A stretch of DNA of 33,964 nucleotides from Pilasporangium apinafurcum (lineage: Eukaryota; Oomycota; Peronosporomycetes; Pythiales; Pythiaceae), in assembly GCA_001600495.1 (NCBI GenBank), contig BCKE01000006.1:466475-500438 (forward strand), in the 5' to 3' direction. The notes under the pieces are model-generated. The model worked only from the letters and a program-made list of their open reading frames with translations, was not told the DNA's origin and ran no database searches. Shown one piece after another: positions 1,025 through 33,964 of the stretch. Both the position numbers and the translations under genes were made by a program. Numbering within the stretch: position 1 is the first letter of the stretch; every line of letters begins with the position of its first letter.

Positions 1025-1925
1025 TTAATCTCTAACTGTGTTGCATGGCGATGCAAGAGAAGCAAATACCGGACTTTCCGCGTCCAGTTCTTCCGTTGAG
1101 GATGACTCTATGACCATGATTGACAGTGAATCTTGGTCATCTTTTGGAACGATATCATCTCCATCACTATTCGATAGTACAATCTCCAATGGGTGTGTCT
1201 TTGGATTATAGATCCAGTATAAACAAATTTGAGATGCGCCAATGGTCAGAAATACAATGTTTGGGCCAATGATAAACCAATTGTGCTGCAAAATGCCGTA
1301 GGTGAACCACATGACATTGTTCGTGACCGCCGCAAATACCATCAGAATGGGGATAAACTCGGCAGATCTATACTTCAGGACGAGGAAAATCTTCTCCAGC
1401 GGCGCGCCGTATAGCAAGAGCGCCATAATGTCGGCGATGACCCCAGCTGTTCGGTTGACTTGTGCACGCGTTTGGTTTGTATGACCTAAGCCGCCGAGAA
1501 TCGCATACACGCTGACAACTACCAGCACAACGGTGAGCAGGACGAGCACTTTTGCGACGTATTTCTTTTCAGGAGTCCATCGGTAGTAAATGACAAGGTA
1601 GACCAGCACAAGCACATCGCCAAACACGTATTGCGCAAAGATGGGAAAGATGAGGTCAGCGAGATAGCCATAGATCAACCTGAAGAATCAGCAACATCAC
1701 ACATGAACATGTCAAGCACAATTCTAATTTTTTTACTAAACATTTTTTGCGGGTCACATACCATACATGCGACGTGGCCATCATCGCGGCCAGAGGGATG
1801 ATGGAAAGATAGCCGATTTCATGAGTCTTGTAAATTCGGTAGATTGCAGGTGCAGGACTGAGGAGCATCATGATTGATGTTATCCCGACCAAGACCCGAA
1901 ACACATCGATGGCAGCAGAAGTCAT
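1025..1925 (-). CDS. SWEET/MtN3 sugar transporter, SWEET-1
   Basis: Two exons: 1925-1762 (164 nt) and 1679-1025, with an 82-bp GT-AG intron in phase 2; 272 aa. The intron splits the Trp codon of SHVW, giving SHVW-LIYGY at the junction. The first half has TM1 with the [12 protein letters not shown] signature, TM2 ending at SHVW, and TM3 ([22 protein letters not shown]). The second half has the usual [15 protein letters not shown] and [18 protein letters not shown] blocks, so both MtN3 triple-helix bundles are present. SWEETs carry sugars down their gradient across plasma or internal membranes; the substrate cannot be read here. The hydrophilic tail ends in ESPVFASLASP, a motif shared by all SWEETs in this window. 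It is closest in sequence to the gene at 3080-3982. Confidence 0.93.
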
Positions 1926-2008
1926 TGATCAAGATGTTTTGAGAACTTAGTAGCTTGATTAAATGATTGATTGATCTGTGGTCAATCAATGAACGAGACA
2001 GTCAGCGC

Positions 2009-2024
2009 AAATGAAGGAATGAGG
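2009..2024 (-). promoter_or_regulatory. Candidate oomycete initiator of SWEET-1
   Basis: The minus strand reads CCTCATTCCTTCATTT, which matches 13 of 16 positions of the Phytophthora initiator consensus GCTCATTYBNCAWTTT as I recall it. It lies 84 bp upstream of the ATG at 1925. Transcription start data are absent. Confidence 0.35.
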
Positions 2025-3079
2025 CCAACATATCCGTTCGATCAAAAGGCTCTGAGAAGTCCATTTACTTGTCATAATGCCCTCAGCATAGATTGTATCA
2101 CCGCGATTGCGTCCGTCAATATTTTATCTGAATACGAAAAAGAAATGCGAGGGCTCTGTAATTGATCGGTATTCATACTGTATGGATATCCATTGAGTGC
2201 CCGCCTCAGTCTTTGCGTCGCGTGCTAATAGTTGTGAATTTGATTGGTAATGAATCAAAAGACTCGCGACATGATGGGTATTATAAGCGCTTTTCCGTCA
2301 TTATCATCATTGTCGTTGTCACATGGCAGTGATTGTGTCAATCCTGAGCACGTAGATCTTCATGTCTCTTCCACCCTTTCGTACTGATGTCTCAGTAAAG
2401 TGACACTAATGAATTTATTGTTGTGGTTACAAAGCTACGGCTTTTACAACAGTATAGACCGCAGACAACGAGAAAACACTTCCTTCATTTCCGATGAAAA
2501 GATGATGACAAGGAGGTTTTATTCTTTTCCAGACAGAATCCATCCGTGAATTCGAGTTCTTTCATAGCCAAAGAAAAGCGCTGAACAAAATTAGTGAGTC
2601 ACAATGACCGCTTCTCGAGCTCGATACTCTCGGAACAGAGCCGCAAAATCTTGTGTGTTGCGTTTGTCTCGCGCAGATACGAAATATTTCGCTAGCTTTA
2701 GCGTCAATTTACATTATTGTCCGAAAATAAATGTGTTACAGTTTCGAATCGGAACGGAAGTCAAACTGTGTATTAAGATCAAACCACAACCTATATGGTC
2801 AATTGTGTCGCATTTTGAACAGGGTCGTGTTTTACATCGCCAAACTGATACTAATGGACGGAGCCGAGGTTTCACATTCTACACAAGTTCGTGCCCAATA
2901 CTGAGGTGTTTGGATGGTTCATATGCGATTCGCGTCTTAGAACTGTCGCACAAACTGTTGCTATCCATTCAACACACCGCAGTTTATAGTGATCGAAGAA
3001 TCATGAATAAGAATAAGGTACACAGATGTATTCGACTGGGTTTTGTTTTTGCCCGATTGTGCCTCCACGTTTGATGTCC
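2025..3079. other. Intergenic region between SWEET-1 and SWEET-2
   Basis: This holds the distal 5' flank of SWEET-1 and the 3' flank of SWEET-2. A 156-codon open frame at 2604-3074 (+) has no recognisable domain, composition or paralogue in the window and was not called. No repeat or RNA gene was seen. Confidence 0.4.
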
Positions 3080-3982
3080 TTAATTGCGTGAATTATTGAT
3101 TGCTTCCAGAGGCGAAGACAGAGCAGTAAATACTGGACTTTCGTTGTTGTTTATGGGTTCGTCCTTCGGTGACATCACCCGTATCGGCAGGGAATCTTGT
3201 TCAGTTTTTGTAGTATCATTATCCGAAGGCATCGTCAATGGATGTGTCTTGGGGTTGAAGATCCAATACAAACATATCTGAGAGGTACCAACCGTCAAAA
3301 AGACAATATTTGGTGCAATGATAAACCAGTCATGCAGCAAAATGCCGTAGGTGAACCACATCGTGTTGTTTGTGACCGCGGCGCAGACCATCAAGATGGG
3401 GATAAATACCGCCGATCTGTGCTTCAAGACATGAAAAACTTTCTCAAGTGGCGAGCCGTACATCAAGAGCGCCATGGTGTCGGCGATGAATCCTGCCGTA
3501 CGAGTAACTTGTGCACGTGTTTGGTTCGTGTGACCAAGTGCGCCCAAAACTGCATATACGCTGGTGACAACAATCACAACTGCGAGTACAGCGAGTACTT
3601 TGCGCACGTACACCTTCTCGGGGGTCCAACGGTAGTAAATGGCAATGTAGACAAGTACCAACACATCACCAAACACGTATTGAGCAAACACGGGGAAAAT
3701 GAGATCTGCAAGGTAGCCATAGATCATCCTGGGGAAGATTACATATTTCACAAACACAAAAAGGAATTGGTGGATGGTTTAACCAGCTTTCCAGAACAAA
3801 CCTGTAGATTTAGCATACCACACGTGCGAACTTGCCATCATCGATGCCAGCGGGATGATTGAGGTGTGGCCAATCTCATGGGTCTTGTAGATACGATAAA
3901 TAGCGGGGGACGGACTGAGGAGCATCATCACCGACGTGACTCCAACCAAAACCCGAAAAACATTTATTGCAGCAGAGGTCAT
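3080..3982 (-). CDS. SWEET/MtN3 sugar transporter, SWEET-2
   Basis: Two exons: 3982-3819 (164 nt) and 3728-3080, with a 90-bp phase-2 intron; 270 aa. The spliced junction reads SHVW-MIYGY. It has both MtN3 bundles: [18 protein letters not shown] in TM1-loop, [22 protein letters not shown] in TM3, [20 protein letters not shown] and [18 protein letters not shown] in the second bundle. The cytosolic-type tail carries IRVMSPKDE and ends with [12 protein letters not shown]. It shares gene structure and much of its sequence with SWEET-1 in the same orientation, so the two look like a tandem duplicate pair. Long open frames on the opposite strand are antisense shadows. Function is facilitative sugar transport by family; the sugar is unknown. 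Confidence 0.93.
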
Positions 3983-4454
3983 TCTTAATTCGTCTGCGTC
4001 TTTGCTTTGCGATCACGTTTGTTGCCGCGTCAATATAGATTTACTTTTAGGATATTGCTGGTTTATCCTAATTTCAAATTGATGGAAGAAGAAGAGGATT
4101 ATCGGTTTTGCTTTAAGCAACGATTGATCGATCGCAAATGATGGTAGTTCCTGTGCTTACGTCTACCAAGCGTATGTTAAAGAGTTTAGTTTTTCTTACC
4201 AAAGCAACCATGCGAAACGCAAGTTCTTGTGGTTGTTAGTGGTGACTCATGCTACGTATCACTTGGCTTTTCGATGTCTGCTTCCTTCTCTCTTATAAGT
4301 ACCTATTGGGACTGCTAGTGCCGGAGATTTGCCCCATGTACTGAGATAAGATCGTTGATGTTGCGGTACTGAATGCCATGATCAGTCTGAAATGTCACAA
4401 ATATCGAAACCATGACCACCAATTGATGGGTAATTGACATTAGCTACTTGAAGT
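3983..4454. other. 5' flank of SWEET-2, nothing else recognised
   Basis: This is the upstream region of SWEET-2 up to the tip of the Fanzor-type element. No clear initiator, repeat or coding frame was recognised. Confidence 0.4.
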
Positions 4455-4992
4455 TCACTTCAAGAGATCATATGAAATATCAATCGATCAGTAACTCAGG
4501 AAGGAGGACCTTCTCTTTTTCTTTCAGTTCGATTTGACTAACAAAAGCTTGCTAAGACTAAACAACCACAGAATAGACATCTACGACACATGAACTCGAT
4601 GAATATGTGTTCATTCTTGAGAAAGATGTCTCTACTACCATTGACATCTCTATCAAGGACGAACTTCCAGTGAAGACAATCCAAGACTTTCTGGTGCTTC
4701 ATCACGTCACGAATTCTCTCACATTTGAGAACAAGTCTTTCTTCTATACTTTTCCTCACACTCGTATGTGTGATATTTGCCTTTCTTTCGCACCGACACT
4801 ACCGCATCACGCTTTCTGGATAATCATTTTGGCATAGCCATCAGTTGTGTCTCCTCGAGCATCCGTTCTTGAGAAGAANAGAGTTTGTTACAGAGAATTG
4901 GAAGCAGGTTTTTATTGATGTGTATTGGTTTGCTTAAAAAGTCAGGTCAAAGTGTATCGTAGAGGTAGAAGAAATGGAGGATAGAGGATAAG
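4455..4992 (-). mobile_element. Deleted Fanzor/TnpB-type element, copy A
   Basis: The element begins at TCACTTCAAGAG and is almost identical over most of its length to copy B at 25923-26493, differing around 4850-4880. The minus strand from 4759 encodes the end of a TnpB/Fanzor-like protein: a degenerate second zinc-ribbon knuckle (CLHW, where copy E has LHC) directly followed by LDRDVNGSRDIFLKNEH at about 4660-4607. In TnpB and Fanzor this DRDxN motif carries the third RuvC catalytic Asp. A first knuckle (KTCSQ) lies just upstream in another frame and is followed by a stop. The N-terminal segment (DAVVSVRKKG, near 4790) is also out of frame. Most of the expected several-hundred-residue protein is deleted. 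Not functional; ends are approximate. Confidence 0.7.
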
Positions 4993-5350
4993 AACAATCT
5001 TACTTGAACACCTCTCCCGAATTTAGTATTGTCCTGTTTTTTTTTTTGCATGCATTTGCTGTGAGTTTCTTCCTCCGATGAAGACCTTCCAATTCCCATT
5101 CCATCGCATATCAACCTGAGGAAATAGATGCCAGTGGAAAGTTTTGATTGCNAAGGAAGAAGACCTTGAGTTCTGATCTGAAGCCATCCGTTGGAGTATG
5201 AGTTGTTCCGCTTTGGTAAATATACTGGAGATAATGAGGAACAATATTCGGGACTAACTTTGTGACACTTTAGTAAGTTTGTGCCGATTAGTGGCAGGAC
5301 GTTCCCTAGTATTTTTACAAATCGCTTTCTACCATAGTCAGCAACCAAAC
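4993..5350. other. 5' flank of the 5351 gene, with ambiguous base
   Basis: This holds the leader and promoter region of the next gene. One undetermined base lies at 5152. An upstream in-frame ATG exists at 5279, but the start at 5351 was preferred because it begins with the family-type N-terminus. No other feature was recognised. Confidence 0.4.
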
Positions 5351-6923
5351 ATGGCGTTCCTGGAAGACTCGGCCGTAAGCCTAGAAGCAGTGCTGCAGTT
5401 TCTCGAAGATGAATCGATTGCCACTACTTTCAACATAAGCAGCCAGGTACACTCACAAGATTCGAATGAACTACCCACACAACAAGACGAAGAAGAAAAT
5501 GCGCTAGGACTGAATGTTGACATTTGTGAATCAGCGGAGGACCGCTTGTCGCTTCTTTCGTCATTGTATTCGCCGTCTACAGATACAGATATTGCATCGA
5601 TTTCAGCAATTGGTGTCCATCCACATTCTGAGCTACTACCATCACAAACGAACAAACAATTGAAACTAAATAACTCTTCGACTAAGAAATCAACCAAAGA
5701 AAAGTCCAAGAAACCACTCAAATACAACCCCAACAAGGCACGTGATGAACGGCGGCAGGAATTGATCTACTTGCGCAAGAAAGTCCAAGAAATGCAGACC
5801 CAATTGACACAATTACAAGCAAACCCTCGATTGCAGTCTGACAGAAGCGGTCTCGTTTGTAAACCAAATCCTAAAGTCTGGAAAGAGATCGCTACCAATC
5901 AATGGGAGCAGCGTAAGGAAGCCGAACGTGAGAACATTCGGTTAAAACTTGCGCTTGCGAGCCAACTCAAAGTTGCGAGAAGTCTTGAGGCGATTCTGAA
6001 GAAACGAACAACGTTGCGGGTATGTCATGAAGTGTGTTCTTTCCATTTGGAACAGAGATTAGAAATACTTTGTGTTCATGTCTAATAACCCAGGGCATGG
6101 AAGCGTGTGGTCTCAGTAAGCGTTCCAAACGGATATACTTTTCTAACGAGGTCGAACGCACGGATGCAGCGATTTTCAACGAGCTGCTTGCTGGTGTGGA
6201 AATGTCATATCGTGAGGTGGATGTAGTGTTGGAGACTATTGATCTTGGCAAGAAAAAAAGCACATACCGTGATACACACGTCCGCGATGGTGTGAATGGG
6301 GTGTACACAGTGATCTCAGCTTGCAAGGTCATGCCATTCGACTTTGACGCAACCAGTACTGCTGTTTGGCGGCATTTTGCACGCAACAAGGAACGTGCAC
6401 CCTTCCATTCTTATTATCGTAAAGATACAACAGTAAGTTGCTCATTTTCTCATGTTTTTTGCAGCAACGAGTTCTGATACATCTATGTTTACAGGGACTG
6501 AAGTCTACGGAGGATATTATTGCCGAGAACATTGGCATTGAGTTACTTTTGTATAACAACAAAGTCGACTCACGCGTCAAACAAATCCTGCGAAAATATG
6601 TCGAAACAGATCGCGTGGTGATGGTATGGCGATCAATCACTGACAACGTCCATTTCGAGGGTACACCAATATCCGGGGTCCATTTCCACGAAAAAGGGTA
6701 TTGTGTTATCAAACGACCCACGGCCACAGTAAATAACTATTCACTACTGCAAACGTGTTATATTATCACACCGGAATTCACTAGCTCTGCTTTGGACGAA
6801 GACCGCGAAACAATCAGAGAGCTCACCAATTNCNTGTTGAATGGCNNAGCAGCTATGCTTGCTACAACCCACCAAANGATAGAGAATATCCTTATGACTC
6901 AAGCTTTAAGGCGGCAAAACTGA
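5351..6923 (+). CDS. bZIP-like/START-like protein, M96-like family, gene 1
   Basis: Three exons, 5351-6019, 6094-6432 and 6495-6923, with phase-0 introns of 74 and 62 bp; 478 aa. Residues 1-25 carry the acidic-hydrophobic N-terminal motif (SLEAVLQFLEDE). Residues about 118-160 form a basic, leucine-spaced bZIP-like segment (NKARDERRQELIYLRKKVQE). Residues 176-220 are a second charged helix (VWKEIATNQWEQ... RENIRLKL). Exons 2 and 3 give a START-like half with AVWRHFARNKERAPFHSYY and TDRVVMVWRS. Known: the family is expanded in oomycetes; its biochemical role is not established to my knowledge. Inferred: a DNA-binding or dimerising, possibly ligand-sensing regulator. Five ambiguous bases at 6832-6877 leave a few residues undetermined, and the inverted-repeat arm starts at 6878, inside the last exon. 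Confidence 0.85.
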
Positions 6924-6966
6924 TGCTGTTCTTATCGGACATCGCACGGAGTGACCTCAGTTTGCT

Positions 6967-8191
6967 ATGGACGAAAGTGATCTGATCGCAATCCTCGACA
7001 CGATTGTTATCCACAACAAAAACACCTGGGTGGTTCAGCAATGATCAACTCGGTTGCAGTTTTGTGTATCATTTCCACAAAAGAGCAATCGTAGCAGCAA
7101 AGTATTCCTTTTGCGGCCAAGAAACTGGGAAATGAAAAAAACTAAGAAGCTGCTTAACTACCGCTGCAACAAGACGCACGCAGTCAGAACACGAGAACAT
7201 TAAAGTAAAACTCATACCGGGAAGTTAAGTTGACATCGCGAAAAGTCCCGATGCAGTCTCAAACAATAAGAAATGAGAAATGCTGAGGGTATGTCGTATG
7301 ATGCTGATACGGAAACACTATGACTGCATTTACTGTATTAGTATATGTATCTCGCTCTGTTCACTCCGAACATGGAAGTATGTGGTCTCGGTATGCAAAT
7401 TAAACGAGTCTATTCTTCAAACGTAGTCGAACAAACCAATGTGGTCATCTTTAACGAGCCGTTTGATAGCACGAAGGTATTGTACCGCGAGGTAGACACT
7501 GTGTTGGAAGCCGTCGGTTTTGGCTCGGACAACCTCCAAGTCATGTAGTGCCCAATTTCACGATTGGGTGAATGGTATGTACATAGTAGTCTCTGTCTCC
7601 AAAGCTCATCTATTCAGCTTTGACTCAGTCATTGCCGCTGTCTGGAACCATTTGGCATGCAGCACAGACTATACTCCTTCCCGTTCGTACTGTCAAAGGA
7701 TGCAACAATACGTCTCCGCCACTAAAAAAATTCGGAGCTACTTGACTTTTACCAATCTGTGTGTGTTAGAAAGACCACAGACAAAGCAATCTCTGGAAAT
7801 ATAGGCACGGTACTATTTGTGTAGAATAGCAAAGCAAACATGCGCTTCAAGCGAATCCTACAGAAGTACATCGAGGAGGATCGTATTTTGGTCGTGTGGT
7901 AGACAATAATAGACGATGCTCATTTCGCAGATATACTGACGTTCAGTGTACAGTTTCATGGCAGAGGATGTTGCGTTATCCAACTGTCTAGCGCTGCATC
8001 AAATGAGTATTCACTGATACTGCAATTATGATATATCGTCACACCAGAACTCACAAACTGCGGCTTGGAGGAAGAACTTGAAACTATCGAAGAGCTTCAC
8101 TGACTTCGTATTGAATGATACAGTCGCCATGATTACTGGTTGCTATCAAATGGTGGATAATATACTGGTGGCTCAAGCCATGGAATTGTAA
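6967..8191 (+). pseudogene. Decayed bZIP/START-family gene
   Basis: Colinear with the intact gene just upstream but broken throughout. An ATG at 6967 opens a family-like N-terminus (MDESDLIAILDTI) that soon hits stops. Near 7190-7305 the end of exon 1 is still visible (EHENI followed by GTATGTC at the expected donor). Exon 2 remains as NMEVCGLGMQIKRVYSSN and YREVDTVLEAV, then a stop at 7546-7548, and resumes in another frame as HDWVNGMYIVVSVSKA and AVWNHLACSTDYTPSRSY. Exon 3 remains as KYIEEDRILVVW followed by a stop, then further stops. It is probably a tandem duplicate of gene 1. An identical copy lies in the other inverted-repeat arm. Confidence 0.82.
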
Positions 8192-8792
8192 TACGAGGAA
8201 CAAGAAATGATGTACTTTTAGCTGTCCTATTATTTGTCCCACCCATCATATCTCTCTTGTCAAGCAAAATCCAGACATCGCATTAACGCATCATCAGTAC
8301 GCTCTCTCTTGATCTCCATAATCTGTACAAGATACTAGTCAGCAACGTACTGATTTGTAGTAATACCAAACGGATTTGTGATACACACGGCTGAGATGGC
8401 ATGACTGCTGACGCATCGTAAGTGAAGCTCGCCACAAGAATGTGCTTTCTATTTCTTTTCACTCAACAAAAGTGAGACAAGACATTGTCAGAATATCTTC
8501 AGCCAAACTGAAATGAACTGTAGGCTTCTCCTGACCAACGGACCAGTCGTGTACGTCAGTACCTTCGACACCAATCGCGCGACATGAACAGACACCAAAA
8601 GTTTCGTTCATTCTAACTGATATGCACCAAAACTTCGAGAATGACCAAATGTGTCATTCGGCAATTTGCCTTGCATTGTTCAACTCACTTCCATTTCCAA
8701 GCGTCCGTTCCTTTCAATGCACTTCAAGTGCCAACAGCGTTTTTCTTCCCAGAACAGTCAGCTGAGATTTTCAAGGATAAACTAATACCAAG
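8192..8792 (+). other. Intergenic region and promoter of SWEET-3
   Basis: Between the pseudogene end and the SWEET-3 ATG I see no coding frame or repeat. A candidate initiator lies at 8652-8667. A second pyrimidine-rich CTCACTTCCATTTCC at 8684-8698 could also serve. Confidence 0.4.
8652..8667 (+). promoter_or_regulatory. Candidate oomycete initiator of SWEET-3
   Basis: TGTCATTCGGCAATTT matches 14 of 16 positions of the oomycete initiator consensus GCTCATTYBNCAWTTT as I recall it, 126 bp upstream of the ATG at 8793. The identical site occurs at 32175-32190 on the minus strand in the duplicate. Confidence 0.45.
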
Positions 8793-9755
8793 ATGTCATC
8801 TGTGATCGTAAATATTTTCCGTGTATTGGCGGCGCTTACGTCGCTCATGATGATTCTCAGCCCTTCGATAGTTGTCTATCGGATACATAAAACCCATGAA
8901 ATCGGTCATACATCGATCATCTCACTAGTCTTGGTGCTAGCCAATTGTCACATGTGGTAAGTACAAGGTTCAATGGTTGTATAGATTTTTTTTCTTACGA
9001 TATGTCACTAAGCTGATATCTTCTTGTTATTCAGGATGATGTTTGGATACCTCGAAGGCAACATCTTCCCTGTGTTTATCACTTTCATAGTCGGAGATTT
9101 CATTACACTCATCTACCTGATCGTCTACTATCGATGTACAACTGAACGTGCTTATGTGCGCAAAGTGATTGGTGTTGTGGTCGTCGCGCTCTCGATCGTC
9201 AGTGTGTATGCGCTGCTGGGTGGCTTGGGTGTCACTCACCAACAACGCCATCAAGTCACCAATACGATCGGGTACACTGCCGCGTGTGTAGCATTGCTGC
9301 TCTACGGCTCACCATTCGAAAAGGTATTCCAAGTGTTAAAGCACAAATCCGCTGTCTTCATCCCTATTCACATGGTGATCGCTGGAACAACCAACAATGG
9401 AGTCTGGGTGGTCTACACCACTTTATCAAGCAATTGGTTCATGTTCGTACCCAATGCTGTCTGTTTTGTTCTGGGTATTATCCAGATTATCTTGTACGTC
9501 ATCTACAATCCCAAGACCCATCCACTCATCACTCCAGACAACATACCAAAGACTGATGCTTCAACGACCACCGTTGAAATTGTGCTCTCACCAATGGCGG
9601 ATGACCTCAGAGGCAGCAAATTCTTCAGTGAGAGCCCAAGCTTTCACGCCATTCAATCACCACTTGTGCCACTCAACAGCGAAAGAGGTACTGTAACTCG
9701 TAGTGCAGCAGAAGTAGTCATAGATGTAGATTTCCCTAGTGATGACGACCAGTAA
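8793..9755 (+). CDS. SWEET/MtN3 sugar transporter, SWEET-3
   Basis: Two exons, 8793-8956 (164 nt) and 9035-9755, with a 78-bp intron (GTAAGT...TCAG) in phase 2; 294 aa, the longest SWEET here. The junction reads CHMW-MMFGY. Bundle 1 has [19 protein letters not shown] and [22 protein letters not shown]; bundle 2 has [15 protein letters not shown] and [22 protein letters not shown]. It groups with the gene at 24781-25667 (shared CHMW-MM(F/Y)GY, GGLGVT or GGFGVT, and PFEK(V/I)) rather than with the other four. The tail has [11 protein letters not shown], then [15 protein letters not shown], followed by about 30 extra residues ending in an acidic DFPSDDDQ. An identical copy lies at 31087-32049. 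Sugar specificity is not visible. Confidence 0.94.
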
Positions 9756-9830
9756 ACTTTTTTTCTCTTCCTTTGAATTGGAGATATTATCTTTATGTGT
9801 TGCGTATGTCTGCCGTAACATGTAGGAGCT

Positions 9831-9905
9831 TGTCACCTCAAGAGCTACCAAAGTAGGAGATCCTCCTCCCTGAGTTACTCATGCTTTGGCAGCTCTTGAG
9901 GTGAG
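9831..9905. repeat. Palindromic pair of Fanzor-type element tips
   Basis: About 75 bp. TCACCTCAAGAGCTACCAAAG (21 bases, here split as TCACCTCAAGAG + CTACCAAAG) is followed directly by an inverted tip that ends CTTTGGCAGCTCTTGAGGTGA. The middle, about 9854-9884, is the reverse complement of the bases following the tip in copy E (AGTAACTCAGGGAGGAGGAT). Nothing internal to the element remains. The large inverted duplication loses homology at 9853, within this structure. Confidence 0.65.
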
Positions 9906-18955: not shown

Positions 18956-19058
18956 TCTGGTAATACTTTAGCAATAGTAATGATACTGGTGACTGATTGG
19001 GTGTTTATTATCTATGTATCTATAGGTTTAGGGATTACACATCAACCGTTATTGTTTG

Positions 19059-19736
19059 GGTCCGACTTGACTAACAAAAGCTAGCTGAGATTAGACAGCC
19101 ATGGAATCGACATCTACAACACATAGACTCGATCAATTCAGACGAGTAGCTGCTCATTCTTGAGAAAGATGTTTCTAGTAGCGTTGGCATCTCTATCAAG
19201 GACAACTTTATAGTCAACACACTTCAAGACTTTCTGATATCAAACATCTTCTTCAGAAATTGTTTCTGTTCCTTCATTCGATACAAACTCACTTTCAGAG
19301 CACTGTTCGGACTTGCTTTGCCTGTCCTACGTCGTTTTATCCTTTTCAAGTCTCAGAAATCAAAGTGTTCTGACCATTCATGCCTCTCTTCCATTTTTTT
19401 CTGGCAATGATGACGTTAACACAAGATCAGAGATCTTCTTTAACTTTTTGCACCTTCATGTCTTCATTATTGTCTTGATAGACTTATTGGTCAGTGTGAA
19501 CCACGCCTTGGACACCACACTCTTTACAGATTTGTGCAAAGAGTCCATACCCAAATCGATCTTGGACGATAACTGTGATCGTTGAGATCTGCTCTCTACG
19601 TGCTATCGTTACCAATCTGGACGGTCTTGTCTTGCTGCCGATTGCATGGAGAAAATATGTTACGTGGTCACTTTGATCGAGATTGTTGAAGTGCTTGATG
19701 TCTTCATACACTAATATATGTAAAAACTGGAAAATG
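19059..19736 (-). mobile_element. Fanzor/TnpB-type element fragment, copy C
   Basis: It lacks the TCACCTCAAGAG tip and starts at GGTCCGACTTGACTAAC, which occurs in copy D at about 29503. It is nearly identical to D for about 450 bp. The minus strand encodes KVLKCVDYKVVLDRDANATR followed by NIFLKNEQ, with the DRDANATRNI motif at 19197-19168. Further from the tip it keeps a conserved frame with KTRPSRLVTIARREQISTI at about 19635-19579; the diverged D copy reads KTRPSGLVATAHRKHISTI. The far side is cut by the MULE-like element at 19737. Several stops and frame changes lie between the blocks. Confidence 0.68.
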
Positions 19737-24780: not shown

Positions 24781-25667
24781 TTATGTTGAATGCAGTGGAG
24801 CAAGTGGTGAGTGCATGGCGCTGAAGCTTGGGCTTTCAATAGCAAACTTGACGCTCGATCGATCATTCGTTGGAGAGAGCACAATGGAGACAGAATTGTG
24901 ATCTTCATTTTTTGGACCATCGTGCAACGCATCACTTGCATCAAATGGGTGCTTCTTGGGGTGATAGATATAGTATACGCAGAGCTGCGCAATACCGAGC
25001 GTTAAGCATACAGCGTTGGTTACAAGCATGAACCAATTACGGTCCATAGGTGTGTAAATCACCCACAGAAAATTGTTGGTGGAGCCAGCGACCACCATTG
25101 TAATAGGGATAAACACGGCGGATTTGTGCTTGAGGACTTGCTTGATTTTCTCAAAAGGAGAGCTGTACAGTACCAGTGTCACACATACGGCGATGTAGCC
25201 GATCGTATCACCTGTTTCGTGTTTTGTTTGACCTGTGACACCAAACCCACCGAGGAATGCGTAGATACTGACAAGTCCCAGGAAACTCACGGTAAATGCA
25301 ATCACTCGGCGACAGTATTGACGCTCTGGGGTCCATTTATAGTAGATTGAAATGTAGATCAGCGCAATGAAGTCCCCCAAACCAAACGTGACAAAGACGG
25401 GAAAGATGTTGTCACTCAAGTAGCCGTACATCATCCTATCATCACCGTAGGTAATTAGGCAACCCGAATGATCAATAAGAGACAACGATACAATTTTGCG
25501 TACCACATGTGACAATTCCCCAACACCGATACAAGCGAGATGATCGATGTATATCCGATCTCGTGGTGCTTGTAAATGCGGTACACCGCCGGAGACGGGC
25601 TCAGGATCATCATCATCGACGAACAAGCCGTCAACACGCGGAATACATCAACAATTTCGAACCCCAT
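24781..25667 (-). CDS. SWEET/MtN3 sugar transporter, SWEET-4
   Basis: Two exons, 25667-25504 (164 nt) and 25435-24781, with a 68-bp phase-2 intron; 272 aa. The junction reads CHMW-MMYGY. Bundle 1 has [19 protein letters not shown] and [20 protein letters not shown]; bundle 2 has [20 protein letters not shown] and [20 protein letters not shown]. In the PN motif of bundle 2 the usual Pro is Thr (VTNAV rather than VPNAV). The tail carries [11 protein letters not shown] and [18 protein letters not shown] at the very end. It belongs with SWEET-3 on shared residues. Function is family-based sugar facilitation; the changed bundle-2 residue may or may not matter. Confidence 0.93.
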
Positions 25668-25922
25668 CTACAAATTATTTGATTATCGACGCTTTGAATT
25701 TGTTGAAAATGCCAGTTAGTGATTCTAGCACATGGAGCAAAAAAGGAAATGAACCAAAAATGCCCACATGAAACACCGTTTCACGTGATGTCTCTTCGAG
25801 CTGTGCATATTGTTTTCTTTCCCATCGTCATTCAAAACCCAAAGCATCCAATCTTTAGGATTGGATGTCGTCACGCAATCTTCCAATAGCATTAACATAA
25901 TCTATTAAATTTAGTATTAACG

Positions 25923-26493
25923 TCACCTCAAGAGATCATATGAAATATCAATCGATCAGTAACTCAGGAAGGAGGACCTTCTCTTTTTCTTTCAGTCCGA
26001 TTTGACTAACAAAAGCTTGCTAAGACTAAACAACCACAGAATAGACATCTACGACACATGAACCCGATGAATATGTGTTCATTCTTGAGAAAGATGTCTC
26101 TACTACCATTGACATCTCTATCAAGGACGAACTTCCAGTGAAGACAATCCAAGACTTTCTGGTGCTTCATCACGTCACGAATTCTCTCACATTTGAGAAC
26201 AAGTCTTTCTTCTATACTCTTCCTCACACTCGTATGTGTGATATTTGCCTTTCTTTCGCACCGACACTACCGCATCACGCTTTCTGGATAATCATTTTGG
26301 CATAGCCATCAGCTGTATCTCTTTGGGTATGCACTGTCATTGCTTCGCGTCTGTTGTTAAAAATAAGGATAGCGGAGAAAAGAGTTTGTTACAGAGAATT
26401 GGAAGCAAGTTTTTATTGATGTGTATTGGTTTGCTTAACAAATCAGATCAAAGTGTATCGTAGAGGTAGAAGAAATGGGGGATAGAGGTTAAG
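25923..26493 (-). mobile_element. Deleted Fanzor/TnpB-type element, copy B
   Basis: 571 bp from the tip TCACCTCAAGAGATCATATG to about GATAGAGGTTAAG. Over most of its length it is almost identical to copy A. The minus strand from 26227 encodes KHQKVLDCLHWKFV followed by LDRDVNGSRDIFLKNEH, with DRDVNGSRDI at 26122-26093. As in copy A, the first zinc-ribbon knuckle (KTCSQ) and the segment DAVVSVRKKG lie upstream in another frame, directly joined through HTYECEEEYRR. In copy D the same HTYE continues into unrelated coding sequence, so A and B look like internal-deletion derivatives. It lies between SWEET-4 and SWEET-5. Confidence 0.72.
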
Positions 26494-26582
26494 ATGGACG
26501 CTAAATATTACAATTGCATATTAAATGGTGGGTGGTCGCTCGTTTTTCATAGTATTCAGATCAACGTGTGTGTTGTTTCTCA

Positions 26583-27475
26583 TTAGCCATTGAGTGGCTC
26601 TAGAGGCGATCGCATATCAGTGAAACTGGGACTTTCTTGATACATATTCTCTTTTGGTGAGAATGGGATTGTGATTGTCACTTGGTCATCTTTTCCGGTA
26701 GCGTCTTCACCGATCGTATTGGTTGGCTTGAGTGGATGTGTTGAGGGGTGGAAGATCCAATACAAGCAGATCTGGGAGATACCAATGGTCAAGAACACGA
26801 TGTTTGGAACAATGATGAACCAGTTTCTCGTCAGCAAACTGTAGGTTAACCACATCGCATTGTTAGTTGATGCTGCAACGACCATCACGATTGGGATGAA
26901 CACGGCCGACCGATGCTTTAAAACATCAAAGACTCGTTCCAGTGGTGAACCGTACAGCATAAACGACACGAAATCAGACATGTAGCCGGTCGTGCTGGCG
27001 ACTTGTGCACGCGTTTGATTGGTATACCCAAGACCAGCGAGAATAGCGTATATGCTGACTATGGTGAGACCAGTGGCAGCAACTGCCAGCACTTTACGCG
27101 CATACGCACGGTCTGGTGTCCAACGGTAGTAGATCGAAATGTATGTCAACGAGATGATATCACCAAACACGAATGTGCTAAACAATGGGAAAAAGATATT
27201 GGCATAGTAACCATAGATCACCCTACATACACAGACGTAGACAATTGTGAGTGAGGCACGCAAGTATCAATTTTCTAGAATAAATCTAACGCATTTATAT
27301 ATGAGACGTACAATACATGCGAGTTGGCCAACATAGAAACTATGGGAATTATGGAAGTATGGCCGATCTCATGGGTCTTGTAAATGCGGTAGATTGCCGG
27401 AGACGGGCTGAGCAACATCATCACTGATGTTGAGCCCGCCAACACCTTGAACACTGTCACGGTCGTTGACGTCAT
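26583..27475 (-). CDS. SWEET/MtN3 sugar transporter, SWEET-5, with Trp-to-Leu change
   Basis: Two exons, 27475-27312 (164 nt) and 27222-26583, with an 89-bp phase-2 intron; 267 aa. Exon 1 ends in TT rather than TG, so the split codon encodes Leu: SHVL-VIYGY where the other SWEETs here have W. Otherwise intact: [78 protein letters not shown]. The tail has [10 protein letters not shown] and ends [17 protein letters not shown]. Like SWEET-6 it starts VTVFKVLAG, so the two are close tandem duplicates. Sugar transport is the family function; whether the Leu affects it is unknown. Confidence 0.91.
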
Positions 27476-28152
27476 TTGGAAATAAGTTAAGGAGACGTGA
27501 ATAAAATAATAATGGCTGGTACGTCGCGCCTGATGAATGGCTTTTGCCTGTTGGAGAGTGCTTTGTCACATTGTGGGATGAGCACGGTCATCATAAGTAA
27601 CTCATCAAAGCTGGAGTACGGATTTGTTGTCGCAATCAGTACACTCAACACTCTTTAAATAGATAGCCCTTCTTGAGAAAAATGAACGACGTACGTTGTC
27701 CATACGATTTTTTTGACATGGTGCCATGTGTCATGCAAAAGTTCTCATGGTGTTATATATTCTACAAGGATGGCTGCAACATGGATAACTGCACTAAGCA
27801 ATCATGCGCAACCATAAACCGATGCCACAGTTATAGAAGCGTCAAATATTGAAATTGAGTTTGGAGTCGTTCCTAAACGTAACTCAATACCACCAGCGGT
27901 CTGTTCAGCTGCCCTCGGATTCGGACGATTGACAACATTTTTGCAATCGGCGCTGCCGTGTATTTTCCGTTTTACAGTAGAAGGGCGCATGCTATATACA
28001 GATCCGCTTGCAATCTCTGAGCTCATGTTGCTTTAGCTTCAGCAACATCACAGAAAGCAAAACGCACACAAAGCAATTGAAAGTATACTATCTTACATTT
28101 TTTTAAAACTACTTTATAGTATTTCTGAACTGTGGTTACCGCGTGCTTGCCT
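27476..28152. other. Intergenic between SWEET-5 and SWEET-6
   Basis: This is the promoter side of SWEET-5, with a candidate initiator at 27568-27583, plus the 3' flank of SWEET-6. A 74-codon frame at 27802-28026 (-) and an 81-codon frame at 28023-28268 (-) that overlaps the SWEET-6 end show no domain. Confidence 0.35.
27568..27583 (-). promoter_or_regulatory. Candidate oomycete initiator of SWEET-5
   Basis: The minus strand reads GCTCATCCCACAATGT, which matches 14 of 16 positions of GCTCATTYBNCAWTTT (recalled consensus). It lies 92 bp upstream of the ATG at 27475, a typical distance for the compact leaders seen in oomycete genes. Confidence 0.45.
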
Positions 28153-29029
28153 TTATGTGTTGATTGGAGCAAGAGGGGATCGAACGAGGGCGAAGTTTGG
28201 GCTTTCCTGAGTCTGATCAGCCTTGGGAGAGACGATGATCGAGATCGTACCGTGATCGCCCTTGTCAACTTGGTTCTCCATTGGTGTCACCAATGGGTGC
28301 GTCTTTGGGTTGTAGATCAAATACAAAATGATCTGCGAGAAACCAATCGTCATAAATACCATGTTGGGGATGATGATGATCCAGTTCGTTAGCAGCATCC
28401 CGTACGTGAACCACATGATATTGTTGGTGACGGCAGCGACAACCATCAAGATTGGGATGAACACAGCGGACTTGTTCTTTAAAACATGAAAGATTTTTTC
28501 CAAAGGAGAGCCGTAAAGCATGAACGCCACGCAGTCAGCAATGTATCCTGACGTTTTGTTGACTTGTTCACGAGTTTGATTTGTGTGGCCTAAGCCACCG
28601 AGAATGGCGTAGATACTGACAATAGCAATCCCAACAGTGACCACAGCGAGCACTTTACGAACGTATGCACGTTCAGTGGTCCAACGGTAGTATACCGCAA
28701 TGTACAGTAGCGCCAGCATATCACCAAACACAAACGTGACAAACACCGGGAAGATGAGGTTGTCGAGGTATCCATAGATGAGCCTGGTAAACACAATGCC
28801 CCAAGCACACCAAGTTTAGCCAAATCATGATTTGTGCATTGTTTTCTTTTTTTTTAATAACATACCATACATGCGAATTAGCTAGCAAGGATGCCAGCGG
28901 GATAATAGAAGTGTGTCCAATCTCATGGGTTTTGTGAATACGATAAATAGCAGGTGATGGACTTAGAAGCATCATGACGGATGTCATCCCTGCCAATACC
29001 TTGAAAACAGTCACGGCCGTCGAGCTCAT
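28153..29029 (-). CDS. SWEET/MtN3 sugar transporter, SWEET-6
   Basis: Two exons, 29029-28866 (164 nt) and 28783-28153, with an 82-bp phase-2 intron; 264 aa. The junction reads SHVW-LIYGY. Bundle 1 has [19 protein letters not shown] and [20 protein letters not shown]; bundle 2 has [19 protein letters not shown] and [20 protein letters not shown]. The tail is [13 protein letters not shown] followed by [17 protein letters not shown] at the end. It is tandem with SWEET-5 and SWEET-4 on the same strand, with no sign of damage. Confidence 0.93.
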
Positions 29030-29431: not shown

Positions 29432-30680
29432 TCACATCTCAAGAGATCACGTGAGATATCGAAATAACAGTAACTCGGAGAGGAGGACCTCCTGCTTTTT
29501 TCGGTCCGACTTGACTAACAAAAGCTAGCTGAGATTAGACAGCCATGGAATCGACATCTACAACACATAGACTCGATCAATTCAGACGAGTAGCTGCTCA
29601 TTCTTGAGAAAGATGTTTCTAGTAGCGTTGGCATCTCTATCAAGGACAACCTTATAGTCAACACACTTCAAGACTTTCTGATATCAAACATCTTCTTCAG
29701 AAATTGTTTCTGTTCCTTCATTCGATACAAACTCACTTTCAGAGCACTGTTCGGACTTGCTTTGCCTGTCCTACGTCGTTTTATCCTTTTCAAGTCTCAG
29801 AAATCAAAGTGTTCTGACCATTCATGCCTCTCTTCCATTTTTTTCTGGCAATGATGACGTTAACACAAGATCAGAGATCTTCTTTAACTTTTTGCACCTT
29901 CATGTCTTCATTATTGTCTTGATAGACTTATTGGTCAGTGTGAACCACGCCTTGGATGGTAGCCACGATCGTCGAGATATGTTTTCTATGTGCTGTCGCC
30001 ACCAATCCGGACGGTCTTGTCTTGTTGTACTTGATATCGGAACCAATGTCAGTAATACCTTCACTTTATGGGAAAGCAGTCAATAACAATGCTTTCTGTT
30101 GTACAAGATCGGATACTTGTTTGCATGATGAGATTCGACAAGAATCGATCTTAGCTCTTTATCAATATCGGTGTTGAGATGATGGAATGACATCCATTCC
30201 TTGCTTCAAACGACCAACAATCGATTTAAGAGCATACAGCCATGTTCTTTGCTCACTAGCTCTTGAAATAGCTCTGGCGTTAACCAGTCTTGGAATTCCC
30301 ACCCTCTAATGGTAGTGGCGAACGGTAGTTTATTAAATGCATGTGTACGACACAACGATGCGTCAGTGGTAATACGACAGTCATGGACGCATTCAAGACT
30401 TCCGCTGTCCCACATAACCTCGTATGTGTGATGGTTGCCTTTCTTTCGCACTGATACTACCGCATCACACTTTCTGGGTAAATACTTTGACTTAGTCATC
30501 AGCTGTATCTCCTCGATCATGCACTGTCATCGCTTCCCATTCGTTCTTGAAAAGAAAAATGGCACTGAAAAGAGTTCGTTACGGGTAATTGGAAACAAAA
30601 TTTTATTGATGTAGATCTGTTTACTTCAAAAACCAGGTCAATGCATTCTAGAGGTAGTAGAAATGGGGGATAAAGGTTAA
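29432..30680 (-). mobile_element. Fanzor/TnpB-type element, longest copy (D)
   Basis: 1,249 bp from the tip TCACATCTCAAGAG to TAAAGGTTAA. On the minus strand the element's N-terminal coding segment starts at ATG 30520 and runs open to 30206 (104 aa), with RKCDAVVSVRKKGNHHTYEV, MWDSGSLE and IRGWEFQDWLTPELFQELVS. The C-terminal segment near the tip reads KVLKCVDYKVVLDRDANATR then NIFLKNEQ, with the DRDANATRNI motif at 29641-29612. Between them lies a frame with KTRPSGLVATAHRKHISTI (about 30030-29974). Stops and a deletion of about 56 bp relative to copy C break the frame. Known: TnpB/Fanzor proteins are RNA-guided nucleases whose third RuvC motif is DRDxN. Inferred: this is a defective relative. 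Confidence 0.7.
30206..30520 (-). pseudogene. Open N-terminal segment of the Fanzor-type element protein
   Basis: 104 codons from MIEEIQLMTKSKYLPRKC to a stop at 30206. Copies A and B carry a diverged version of its first 35 residues (EETQLMA..., RKRDAVVSVRKKGKYHTYE) with a stop. The pattern SVRKKGNHHTYEVMWDSG is reminiscent of a Tudor/chromo-like small barrel, followed by an acidic-aromatic stretch (GWEFQDWLTPELF). That reading is my inference and is weak. The frame ends where homology to a longer protein would be expected. Confidence 0.45.
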
Positions 30681-30698: not shown

Positions 30699-31009
30699 GC
30701 AAAATAGACTGTGAGGAAGAGTATAAACAGAGACCTGTTCTCAGTGTGGGAGAATCAACCACGCGATAAAGCACCAGAAAGTCTTTCGGTATCTTCACTG
30801 CAGGCTCATCCTTGATAGATATATCTATGCTGTTAGAAACATACTTCTCAAGAATGAACACTTATTCATCGAGTCTAAGTATCACAGATGGCTATTCCGT
30901 GGTTGTCTAGTCTTATATAATTAGCTTTCGTTAGTCAAGTCAAATCGAAAGAAAAAAGTAGGAGATCCTCCTCCCTGAGTTACTCATGCTTTGATAGCTC
31001 TTGAGGTGA
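30699..31009 (+). mobile_element. Fanzor/TnpB-type element fragment in inverse orientation, copy E
   Basis: This is the C-terminal end of the same element, turned around relative to copy D. The plus strand from 30733 reads TCSQCGRINHAIKHQKVF, then RYLHCRLILDRYIYAVRNI and LLKNEHLFI, without a stop until about 30924. It preserves the complete first knuckle CxxC and the last Cys of the second, but the catalytic motif is DRYIYAVRNI, so the expected DRDxN Asp and Asn are lost. The tip reads out at 31009 (GAGGTGA on plus, TCACCTC on minus). Together with D it forms a head-to-head composite of about 1.58 kb. Confidence 0.7.
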
Positions 31010-31086
31010 CAAGCTCCTACATGTTACGGCAGACATACGCAACACATAAAGATAATATCTCCAATTCAAAGGAAGAGAAAAAAAGT

Positions 31087-32049
31087 TTACTGGTCGTCAT
31101 CACTAGGGAAATCTACATCTATGACTACTTCTGCTGCACTACGAGTTACAGTACCTCTTTCGCTGTTGAGTGGCACAAGTGGTGATTGAATGGCGTGAAA
31201 GCTTGGGCTCTCACTGAAGAATTTGCTGCCTCTGAGGTCATCCGCCATTGGTGAGAGCACAATTTCAACGGTGGTCGTTGAAGCATCAGTCTTTGGTATG
31301 TTGTCTGGAGTGATGAGTGGATGGGTCTTGGGATTGTAGATGACGTACAAGATAATCTGGATAATACCCAGAACAAAACAGACAGCATTGGGTACGAACA
31401 TGAACCAATTGCTTGATAAAGTGGTGTAGACCACCCAGACTCCATTGTTGGTTGTTCCAGCGATCACCATGTGAATAGGGATGAAGACAGCGGATTTGTG
31501 CTTTAACACTTGGAATACCTTTTCGAATGGTGAGCCGTAGAGCAGCAATGCTACACACGCGGCAGTGTACCCGATCGTATTGGTGACTTGATGGCGTTGT
31601 TGGTGAGTGACACCCAAGCCACCCAGCAGCGCATACACACTGACGATCGAGAGCGCGACGACCACAACACCAATCACTTTGCGCACATAAGCACGTTCAG
31701 TTGTACATCGATAGTAGACGATCAGGTAGATGAGTGTAATGAAATCTCCGACTATGAAAGTGATAAACACAGGGAAGATGTTGCCTTCGAGGTATCCAAA
31801 CATCATCCTGAATAACAAGAAGATATCAGCTTAGTGACATATCGTAAGAAAAAAAATCTATACAACCATTGAACCTTGTACTTACCACATGTGACAATTG
31901 GCTAGCACCAAGACTAGTGAGATGATCGATGTATGACCGATTTCATGGGTTTTATGTATCCGATAGACAACTATCGAAGGGCTGAGAATCATCATGAGCG
32001 ACGTAAGCGCCGCCAATACACGGAAAATATTTACGATCACAGATGACAT
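31087..32049 (-). CDS. SWEET/MtN3 sugar transporter, second copy of SWEET-3
   Basis: Two exons, 32049-31886 (164 nt) and 31807-31087, with a 78-bp phase-2 intron; 294 aa, identical to the protein at 8793-9755. The promoter region, including the initiator-like site (32175-32190), is duplicated too. Features are as for SWEET-3: CHMW-MMFGY junction, [23 protein letters not shown] and [15 protein letters not shown]. Either a very recent segmental duplication or an assembly duplicate of the same locus; the sequence alone does not tell. If real, gene dosage of this transporter is doubled. Confidence 0.9.
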
Positions 32050-32650
32050 CTTGGTATTAGTTTATCCTTGAAAATCTCAGCTGACTGTTCTGGGAAGAAA
32101 AACGCTGTTGGCACTTGAAGTGCATTGAAAGGAACGGACGCTTGGAAATGGAAGTGAGTTGAACAATGCAAGGCAAATTGCCGAATGACACATTTGGTCA
32201 TTCTCGAAGTTTTGGTGCATATCAGTTAGAATGAACGAAACTTTTGGTGTCTGTTCATGTCGCGCGATTGGTGTCGAAGGTACTGACGTACACGACTGGT
32301 CCGTTGGTCAGGAGAAGCCTACAGTTCATTTCAGTTTGGCTGAAGATATTCTGACAATGTCTTGTCTCACTTTTGTTGAGTGAAAAGAAATAGAAAGCAC
32401 ATTCTTGTGGCGAGCTTCACTTACGATGCGTCAGCAGTCATGCCATCTCAGCCGTGTGTATCACAAATCCGTTTGGTATTACTACAAATCAGTACGTTGC
32501 TGACTAGTATCTTGTACAGATTATGGAGATCAAGAGAGAGCGTACTGATGATGCGTTAATGCGATGTCTGGATTTTGCTTGACAAGAGAGATATGATGGG
32601 TGGGACAAATAATAGGACAGCTAAAAGTACATCATTTCTTGTTCCTCGTA
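32050..32650 (-). other. Duplicated 5' flank of the SWEET-3 copy
   Basis: Mirror of 8192-8792, including the candidate initiator at 32175-32190. No other feature was recognised. Confidence 0.5.
32175..32190 (-). promoter_or_regulatory. Candidate initiator of the SWEET-3 copy
   Basis: Identical to the 14-of-16 match at 8652-8667, 126 bp upstream of the ATG at 32049. Confidence 0.45.
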
Positions 32651-33875
32651 TTACAATTCCATGGCTTGAGCCACCAGTATATTATCCACCATTTGATAGC
32701 AACCAGTAATCATGGCGACTGTATCATTCAATACGAAGTCAGTGAAGCTCTTCGATAGTTTCAAGTTCTTCCTCCAAGCCGCAGTTTGTGAGTTCTGGTG
32801 TGACGATATATCATAATTGCAGTATCAGTGAATACTCATTTGATGCAGCGCTAGACAGTTGGATAACGCAACATCCTCTGCCATGAAACTGTACACTGAA
32901 CGTCAGTATATCTGCGAAATGAGCATCGTCTATTATTGTCTACCACACGACCAAAATACGATCCTCCTCGATGTACTTCTGTAGGATTCGCTTGAAGCGC
33001 ATGTTTGCTTTGCTATTCTACACAAATAGTACCGTGCCTATATTTCCAGAGATTGCTTTGTCTGTGGTCTTTCTAACACACACAGATTGGTAAAAGTCAA
33101 GTAGCTCCGAATTTTTTTAGTGGCGGAGACGTATTGTTGCATCCTTTGACAGTACGAACGGGAAGGAGTATAGTCTGTGCTGCATGCCAAATGGTTCCAG
33201 ACAGCGGCAATGACTGAGTCAAAGCTGAATAGATGAGCTTTGGAGACAGAGACTACTATGTACATACCATTCACCCAATCGTGAAATTGGGCACTACATG
33301 ACTTGGAGGTTGTCCGAGCCAAAACCGACGGCTTCCAACACAGTGTCTACCTCGCGGTACAATACCTTCGTGCTATCAAACGGCTCGTTAAAGATGACCA
33401 CATTGGTTTGTTCGACTACGTTTGAAGAATAGACTCGTTTAATTTGCATACCGAGACCACATACTTCCATGTTCGGAGTGAACAGAGCGAGATACATATA
33501 CTAATACAGTAAATGCAGTCATAGTGTTTCCGTATCAGCATCATACGACATACCCTCAGCATTTCTCATTTCTTATTGTTTGAGACTGCATCGGGACTTT
33601 TCGCGATGTCAACTTAACTTCCCGGTATGAGTTTTACTTTAATGTTCTCGTGTTCTGACTGCGTGCGTCTTGTTGCAGCGGTAGTTAAGCAGCTTCTTAG
33701 TTTTTTTCATTTCCCAGTTTCTTGGCCGCAAAAGGAATACTTTGCTGCTACGATTGCTCTTTTGTGGAAATGATACACAAAACTGCAACCGAGTTGATCA
33801 TTGCTGAACCACCCAGGTGTTTTTGTTGTGGATAACAATCGTGTCGAGGATTGCGATCAGATCACTTTCGTCCAT
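32651..33875 (-). pseudogene. Decayed bZIP/START-family gene, duplicate copy
   Basis: Mirror of 6967-8191 with the same stops and frame breaks (for example the exon-2 remnant ending at 33294 and the resumed frame HDWVNGMYIVVSVSKA). Because the damage is identical in both arms, the gene decayed before the segment was duplicated, or the duplication is an assembly effect. Confidence 0.82.
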
Positions 33876-33964
33876 AGCAAACTGAGGTCACTCCGTGCGA
33901 TGTCCGATAAGAACAGCATCAGTTTTGCCGCCTTAAAGCTTGAGTCATAAGGATATTCTCTATC

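Follow-up and report, generated by a model that had tools for sequence, protein, structure and literature searches.

Deletion derivatives and fragments of a probable IS607-type Fanzor2 family in the genome of Pilasporangium apinafurcum

Five relics of one family in the window

What are the repeated sequences that, within 33,964 nt of contig BCKE01000006.1 of the oomycete Pilasporangium apinafurcum (the window, i.e., the whole stretch of DNA analyzed here), encode pieces of a zinc ribbon followed by DRDxN, and what moved them? Fanzors are eukaryotic relatives of TnpB and Cas12, and a preliminary description of the window, made from its letters, recognized five copies (A to E) as a decayed Fanzor family. 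We found that copies A to E are deletion derivatives and fragments of one Fanzor family, very likely of the IS607-type Fanzor2 kind, and that no copy in the window can encode a full-length recombinase or Fanzor.

Copy A (4458..4987, minus strand) is an internally deleted element, with the left end at 4987, TTAT outside it, and TGAA behind the right end at 4458. Mapped on the element of the long genomic copy L011 described below, to which all element positions refer, it consists of positions 74-246 (gapped) fused to 2226-2483, plus a long right-end tail; its decayed Fanzor C-terminus, up to the stop codon (4538..4764, minus strand), carries the second zinc knuckle CLHW and DRDVN. Copy B (25926..26488, minus strand) is of the same deletion class, with TTAA at its left end (26488) and TGAC after its right end (25926), and is 94-99% identical to A in the compared stretches, with different flanking DNA. 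In copy C (19046..19636, minus strand), the recombinase/Fanzor N-terminal part (element 912-1306) is fused to 2296-2486; we looked for a left end of this copy and found none, and its short right end, ...CAATAACGG, is followed by TTGA. Copy D (29437..30676, minus strand) comprises element positions 78-361, 624-987, 1031-1306 and 2296-2480, between a left end at 30676 flanked by TTAA and a long right end at 29437, and includes a remnant of the IS607-type serine recombinase (29951..30313, minus strand; element 624-987) recognized by DNA similarity to the L011 element. Copy E (30707..31006, plus strand) is a Fanzor C-terminal fragment (TCSQCG...LHC...LDRYIY) with a long right end. Beside copy C, a 65-nt inverted repeat (19793-19857/20202-20266; 92% complementary, arms 344 nt apart) is possibly another small transposon.

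The preliminary description read variants of LDRDxN in all five copies. Translations of A to D contain the motif, the minus strand giving LDRDVNGSRDIFLKNE in A (DRDVN from 4654) and B (26122) and LDRDANATRNIFLKNE in C (19197) and D (29641), but copy E, which reads CSQCGRINHAIKHQKVFRYLHCRLILDRYIYAVRNILLKNE in an open frame at 30727-30924 of the plus strand, has LDRYIY and has lost DRDxN. The first CxxC (TCSQCG) and LHC ascribed to E were confirmed in the plus-strand frame, as was CLHW in A and B. Similarly, the proposed relationship of the tips to TCACCTCAAGAG holds for A, B, D and E, but not for C, which has a different, shorter right end terminating in ...GGACCCAAACAATAACGG at 19046. With at most one mismatch, CTCTTGARGTGA occurs 5 times in the window, versus 0.43 expected from shuffles: in A (4455), B (25923) and E (30998), and as a pair at 9833/9893; D, with a 2-nt insertion in its tip (TCACATCTCAAGAG), is missing from these sites. 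A 72-nt near-perfect hairpin at 9833..9904, to which no strand is assigned, consists of two right-end tips plus a portion of the tail (folding z -6.8). The open frame had been placed 150-250 bp from the tip, whereas the measured distance from stop codon to tip is 80-145 nt in the minus-strand copies (A, 80; B, 80; C, 92; D, 145) and 35 nt in L011. Both proteins are incomplete in every window copy, and all copies had already been called defective in the preliminary description. The RuvC-I region is missing from all of them, and the zinc ribbon and DRDxN are partial in A to D. The two window peptides scanned, A/B and C/D, fell under the Pfam cut-off (E 0.0093 and 0.013), so that the Fanzor identity of the window copies rests on their genomic relatives.

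Copies D and E form a compound, in which the right-end half of E is inverted beside the left end of D. The D/E junction aligns continuously with locus L005 on contig C24 (73% over 592 columns); thus, the compound itself recurs. The segments 6878-9853 and 30989-33964 are inverted copies with 1 mismatch in 2,976 nt, each with the same sugar-transporter-like gene, and the latter reaches the end of the window, which is a scaffold gap (N from C6:500439). This inverted copy is probably an assembly artefact, and the outer flank of E, which lies within it, may thus be artefactual too. The Fanzor relics are hosted by a cluster of MtN3/SWEET-like sugar transporters (1025-3757, 9024-9755, 24781-28794 and 31087-31818); PF03083 was matched by all 3 sugar transporter genes scanned, and 3 other window proteins scanned had no match.

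A long genomic copy with a Fanzor and a recombinase

A search for a full-length copy in the genome (36.47 Mb, 136 contigs) led to L011 on contig C62, an element 2,486 nt long that has an open frame of 504 codons. Behind its left end comes the recombinase, with an HTH-like piece at 594 and catalytic motifs at 888-1004; the Fanzor starts at about 1000 and has RuvC-I at 1816, the zinc ribbon at 2230, RuvC-III at 2332 and its stop at 2451, and the right end is at 2486. The motifs CAIDPGV (RuvC-I), EHYTTKTCSQCG, CPHC and LDRDVNAARNI are all present, with a complete CxxC...CxxC followed by DRDxN, and the protein matches the NCBIfam guided_TnpB model (5.8e-43, 147.6 bits, cut-off 100) as well as the Pfam families PF07282 (3.7e-21) and HTH_OrfB_IS605 (2e-10). 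The preliminary description had named another enzyme class in a full-length copy, for example a DDE transposase, or long copies without upstream RuvC motifs as findings that would speak against it. The product of the long relative is instead of the TnpB/Fanzor class, RuvC-I lies ahead of the zinc ribbon, and the family was rightly described as a decayed Fanzor.

The best solved relative of L011 is the mimivirus TnpB-like protein L79 (PDB 9b0l; 6.2e-25). The alignment pairs CAIDPGV with CGIDPGL, DRDVNAARNI with DRDENAAKNI and also the glutamate seven positions ahead of the first zinc cysteine. This is the alternative RuvC-II glutamate next to the zinc ribbon (Ealt): EHYTTKTCSQC of L011 aligns with the NEYLTTKTCSNC region of L79, and the canonical RuvC-II spot of L011 reads LLPTF, aligned with FLEKF of L013. 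PMC10711439 gives DPG together with a glutamate moved just before the zinc ribbon as the signature that separates Fanzors from ordinary TnpB. In all four PDB searches made (two with other families of the genome and one with a mixed profile), L79 came out on top, and none of the listed matches was a chain named Fanzor. L011 appears to be Fanzor2-like, in an element that has an IS607-type recombinase gene as well.

PF07282 has at least 150 matches in the genome (852 candidates, of which 150 were scored), all listed ones above the curated cut-off and other Fanzor families included, and a 54-residue piece of copy A likewise has at least 150 (436 candidates, 150 of them scored). These numbers are not a matter of chance, and we conclude that the zinc-ribbon/RuvC-III fragments of the window are Fanzor. 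An excess at third codon positions was seen in all three groups of copies (0.236, 0.266 and 0.274 for 5, 16 and 9 copies), a weak signal in copies picked by protein similarity. None of 8 pattern matches in viral contigs was confirmed as a viral relative.

In L011, a broken IS607-type serine recombinase overlaps the start of the Fanzor. PF00239 has 8 matches in the genome, weak to fair, and 4 of these (on C62, C55, C1 and C17; E-values 2.3e-5 to 2.5e-3) overlap or directly precede, by coordinates, Fanzor frames of the L011 family. The transpos_IS607 model matched all 3 catalytic pieces (6.8e-15 in the C55 copy, 7.2e-9 and 2.6e-8), with bit scores of 55, 35 and 34, all under the cut-off of 110; for the same pieces, the Pfam resolvase model was above its cut-off in one, below it in another and did not detect the third. 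The N-terminal HTH piece matched no family in the NCBIfam and Pfam scans; by eye, it resembles the helix-turn-helix of IS607. The recombinase frames are broken in every copy sampled. An IS607 serine recombinase, TnpA, is thus present beside the Fanzor frames, with weak scores, and its overlap with the Fanzor, taken together with L79 as the best relative, points to a family of the IS607-type TnpA plus Fanzor2 kind.

Deletion classes, flanking TTAA and mode of spread

We mapped 30 sequences, 25 genomic and 5 from the window, picked from search matches rather than at random, on the L011 element. Deletion derivatives made up 25 of the 30 and fell into five junction classes: about 245/2226 in 14 (A, B and 12 of the other 28), 760/2056 in 4, 162/887 in 4, 1306/2296 in 2 (C and D) and 140/2108 in L047 only. 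E and L038 map by their 3' part only, and the five-class deletions are absent from the mapped part of L064, L076 and L077. Every deletion class retains the last ~190 nt. Since the same junction recurs at different loci, the derivative must have moved after it formed, with duplication as a further possibility for C and D. Additionally, 15 of 17 further short copies show both ends and measure 495-505 nt; the other two, L086 and L089, failed the tip thresholds and were excluded.

The left end reads CCTTTATTCCCCC or CCTCTATCCCCC. The right end comes in two forms: the short one of the long copies and C, given above, and a long one, seen in A, B, D, E and numerous short copies, the tail of which is about 60 nt longer, ends in CTCTTGAGG and frequently precedes TGAGG or a similar sequence. 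Left and right ends are alike over 8 nt, CC(T/G)TTATT. Directly outside the element, TTAA was found at 14 of 30 left ends (33 minus the flankless L059, a false match at window position +30438 and one of the duplicates L037/L038) and at 10 of 17 short right ends (21 minus L042, L050, L051 and L054, which have the long right end), and at other offsets examined in 0 or 1 copies each. By contrast with the short right ends, all 19 long right ends listed lack TTAA immediately behind the matched tip, and the long right ends of A, B, D and E have no TTAA there either. In the set of 28 paired copies that have a short right end (13 from the original ends and 15 from the further short copies), 15 are flanked by TTAA/TTAA, 2 by TTAT/TTAT and 8 by TTAA on the left only, the remaining 3 being L021 (TTAT/TTAA), L040 (TTAC/CTAC) and L046 (ACAT/TTAA); hence, in 13 of 28 the flanks are not both TTAA.

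The four bases ahead of the left TTAA are mostly pyrimidines, and the right side has no mirror-image purine run: the frequency of T is 0.49 at left positions -10 to -5, versus 0.26 for A at right positions +5 to +10 (n = 42 and 30, p = 1.2e-5). The 42 left flanks were 27 of the 30 (without L005, L006 and L007, which have shifted tips) plus 15 from the further short copies, and the 30 right flanks were 16 of the 17 (without L015) plus 14 of 15 (without L094), the register of L085, L088 and L091 having been shifted by one or two bases on visual inspection. This one-sided motif fits a target motif on the left side and argues against a symmetric TTAA integrase. Searches with 11 joined flank pairs revealed no empty site, each pair matching its own halves only. 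At L015 (C26, 1358-1402), two family elements lie right end to right end, seemingly with one common TTAA.

According to PMC6188088, IS607 elements lack inverted repeats and target duplications, whereas here many copies have TTAA on both sides and CC(T/G)TTATT is common to left and right ends; in view of the matching odd flanks, a 4-bp duplication is conceivable. TTAA suggested a piggyBac-like (DDE) element that captured a Fanzor2, of the type called Fanzor2*, in which TTAA would be a genuine 4-bp target duplication and the recombinase gene would be a passive relic. Such an origin would account for TTAA on both sides of 15 of 28 paired copies, for odd flanks that agree (TTAT/TTAT in L017 and L084, and TTAG/TTAG in L036, which has a long right end and is outside the 28) or read TTAC/CTAC (L040), and for the loss of the recombinase N-terminus in one deletion class (4 of 30); Fanzor2 within cut-and-paste elements is on record in a section of PMC10711439. 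However, the genome has just 2 piggyBac transposase matches (3 candidates), and within ~1.5 kb on each side of these two loci no TTAA-bounded inverted end pair is alike at more than 7 of 14 bases, a lone TTAACCTTT at L067:3412 having no partner. Furthermore, the flanks of L021 and L046 disagree, and a pyrimidine-rich left flank without a mirror image on the right is unexpected for a palindromic TTAA target entered in random orientation. After the searches for transposase, ends and recombinase, piggyBac was demoted as carrier, and we regard this origin as unlikely.

Spread by segmental duplication on scaffold C6, without transposition, appears a little less probable still. Over 300 nt, A and B have 99% identity, and C and D are just as close; every match to copy A that reaches 83% or more over 140 nt or longer (6 of 46, A included) is on C6, which suggests local spread; but the flanks of A and B differ on both sides from the element ends onward, and one deletion junction recurs on several scaffolds. 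That the motif belongs to an unrelated zinc-ribbon protein or arose by chance, as the window peptides, under the Pfam cut-off on their own, might suggest, can practically be dismissed in view of the genomic matches to the piece of A and is contradicted by a long copy with RuvC motifs. What we observe is the anatomy of the copies, junctions common to several loci and TTAA outside left and short right ends, and it is very likely that the copies in the window descend, as dead derivatives, from a family of IS607-type transposons in which tnpA, the serine recombinase gene, overlaps the start of tnpB, here Fanzor2. In such a family, full-length elements would have supplied TnpA, which would have moved DNA bearing both ends into YYTTAA-like sites, and shortened derivatives could have multiplied beside their parent elements. 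Fanzor, loaded with RNA read from the last ~190 nt and the neighbouring chromosome, might then have cut emptied donor sites by a TTAA-like motif, with the element being copied back.

Relation to known systems and a possible guide RNA

The family is most likely a decayed, high-copy IS607-type Fanzor2, a known kind, distinguished by its uncommon flank motif and its wealth of deletions. With Fanzor2/TnpB of IS607-type elements such as mimivirus L79 (9b0l), it shares a DPG RuvC-I, the glutamate before the zinc ribbon, CxxC..CxxC, DRDxN and a neighbouring IS607-type recombinase gene, but it differs from them in the at least 150 matching places, the predominance of deletion derivatives among the mapped sequences (25 of 30) and the TTAA that borders many copies on both sides. 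Judging by Table 1 of PMC3627910, which has one entry for each of three Phytophthora species, the Fanzor2 elements of that genus are alike in their stramenopile hosts and Fanzor2 type. The Fanzor2* cut-and-paste transposons, as presented in a section of PMC10711439, also combine a Fanzor2 with ends resembling inverted repeats and with a target motif that is repeated, but here an IS607-type recombinase gene is still recognizable. GtFz1, for which PMC10432273 gives TTAAN as the TAM, likewise has TTAA beside its target but is a Fanzor1. With at least 150 matching places, a long open frame, a recognizable recombinase and several deletion classes that have defined ends, this genome makes it possible to derive from natural insertions the target motif, the limit of the putative guide-RNA region and the course of loss, and to ask whether short copies supply guides in trans.

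TnpB/Fanzor systems encode guide RNAs in the right-end segment, and by analogy a guide RNA from the right end is plausible here. All five deletion classes keep the last ~190 nt, although retention of this segment would also be expected for recombinase binding sites. For the last 194 nt of L011, folding is more stable than in shuffled sequences (z -2.5). Among 7 long tails folded, that of L042 clearly beats shuffles (z -2.85) and the rest lie between -1.5 and +0.71, with the tails of B (+0.71) and D (+0.37) not beating shuffles. An alignment of 15 right ends showed no covariation gain (term 0.19; compensatory change in 5 of 43 pairs), and Rfam had 0 matches in the window at gathering thresholds. 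With no covariation gain and 1 of 7 tails clearly better than shuffles, a conserved RNA structure at the right end is not supported; these results neither confirm nor contradict the guide-RNA location proposed in the preliminary description. Speculatively, and we think improbably, the 0.5-kb derivatives could be mobile guide-RNA genes: every insertion might express the scaffold plus its own flank as a guide for Fanzor2 made by a small number of long copies, so that a swarm of guides would act in trans in a eukaryote.

Other Fanzor frames were encountered in the genome. At L100 (C135), a 690-aa frame (3684-5756, minus strand) adjoins HTH and DDE_3 frames (2757-3561, plus strand), which we take to be Tc1/mariner-like. 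The 690-aa protein has DPG; at the canonical RuvC-II spot it has a glutamate, within FLEKF, whereas the position of the Fanzor-type glutamate is occupied by alanine, which is unusual against the rule of PMC10711439 cited above; its last third has a broken 88% relative on C7. The same locus carries a 685-aa Fanzor frame with a Lys-rich N-terminus (267-2324), and L023 on C12 has a Fanzor frame that is 41% identical to L011 and has a zinc-ribbon motif of its own that recurs at several loci.
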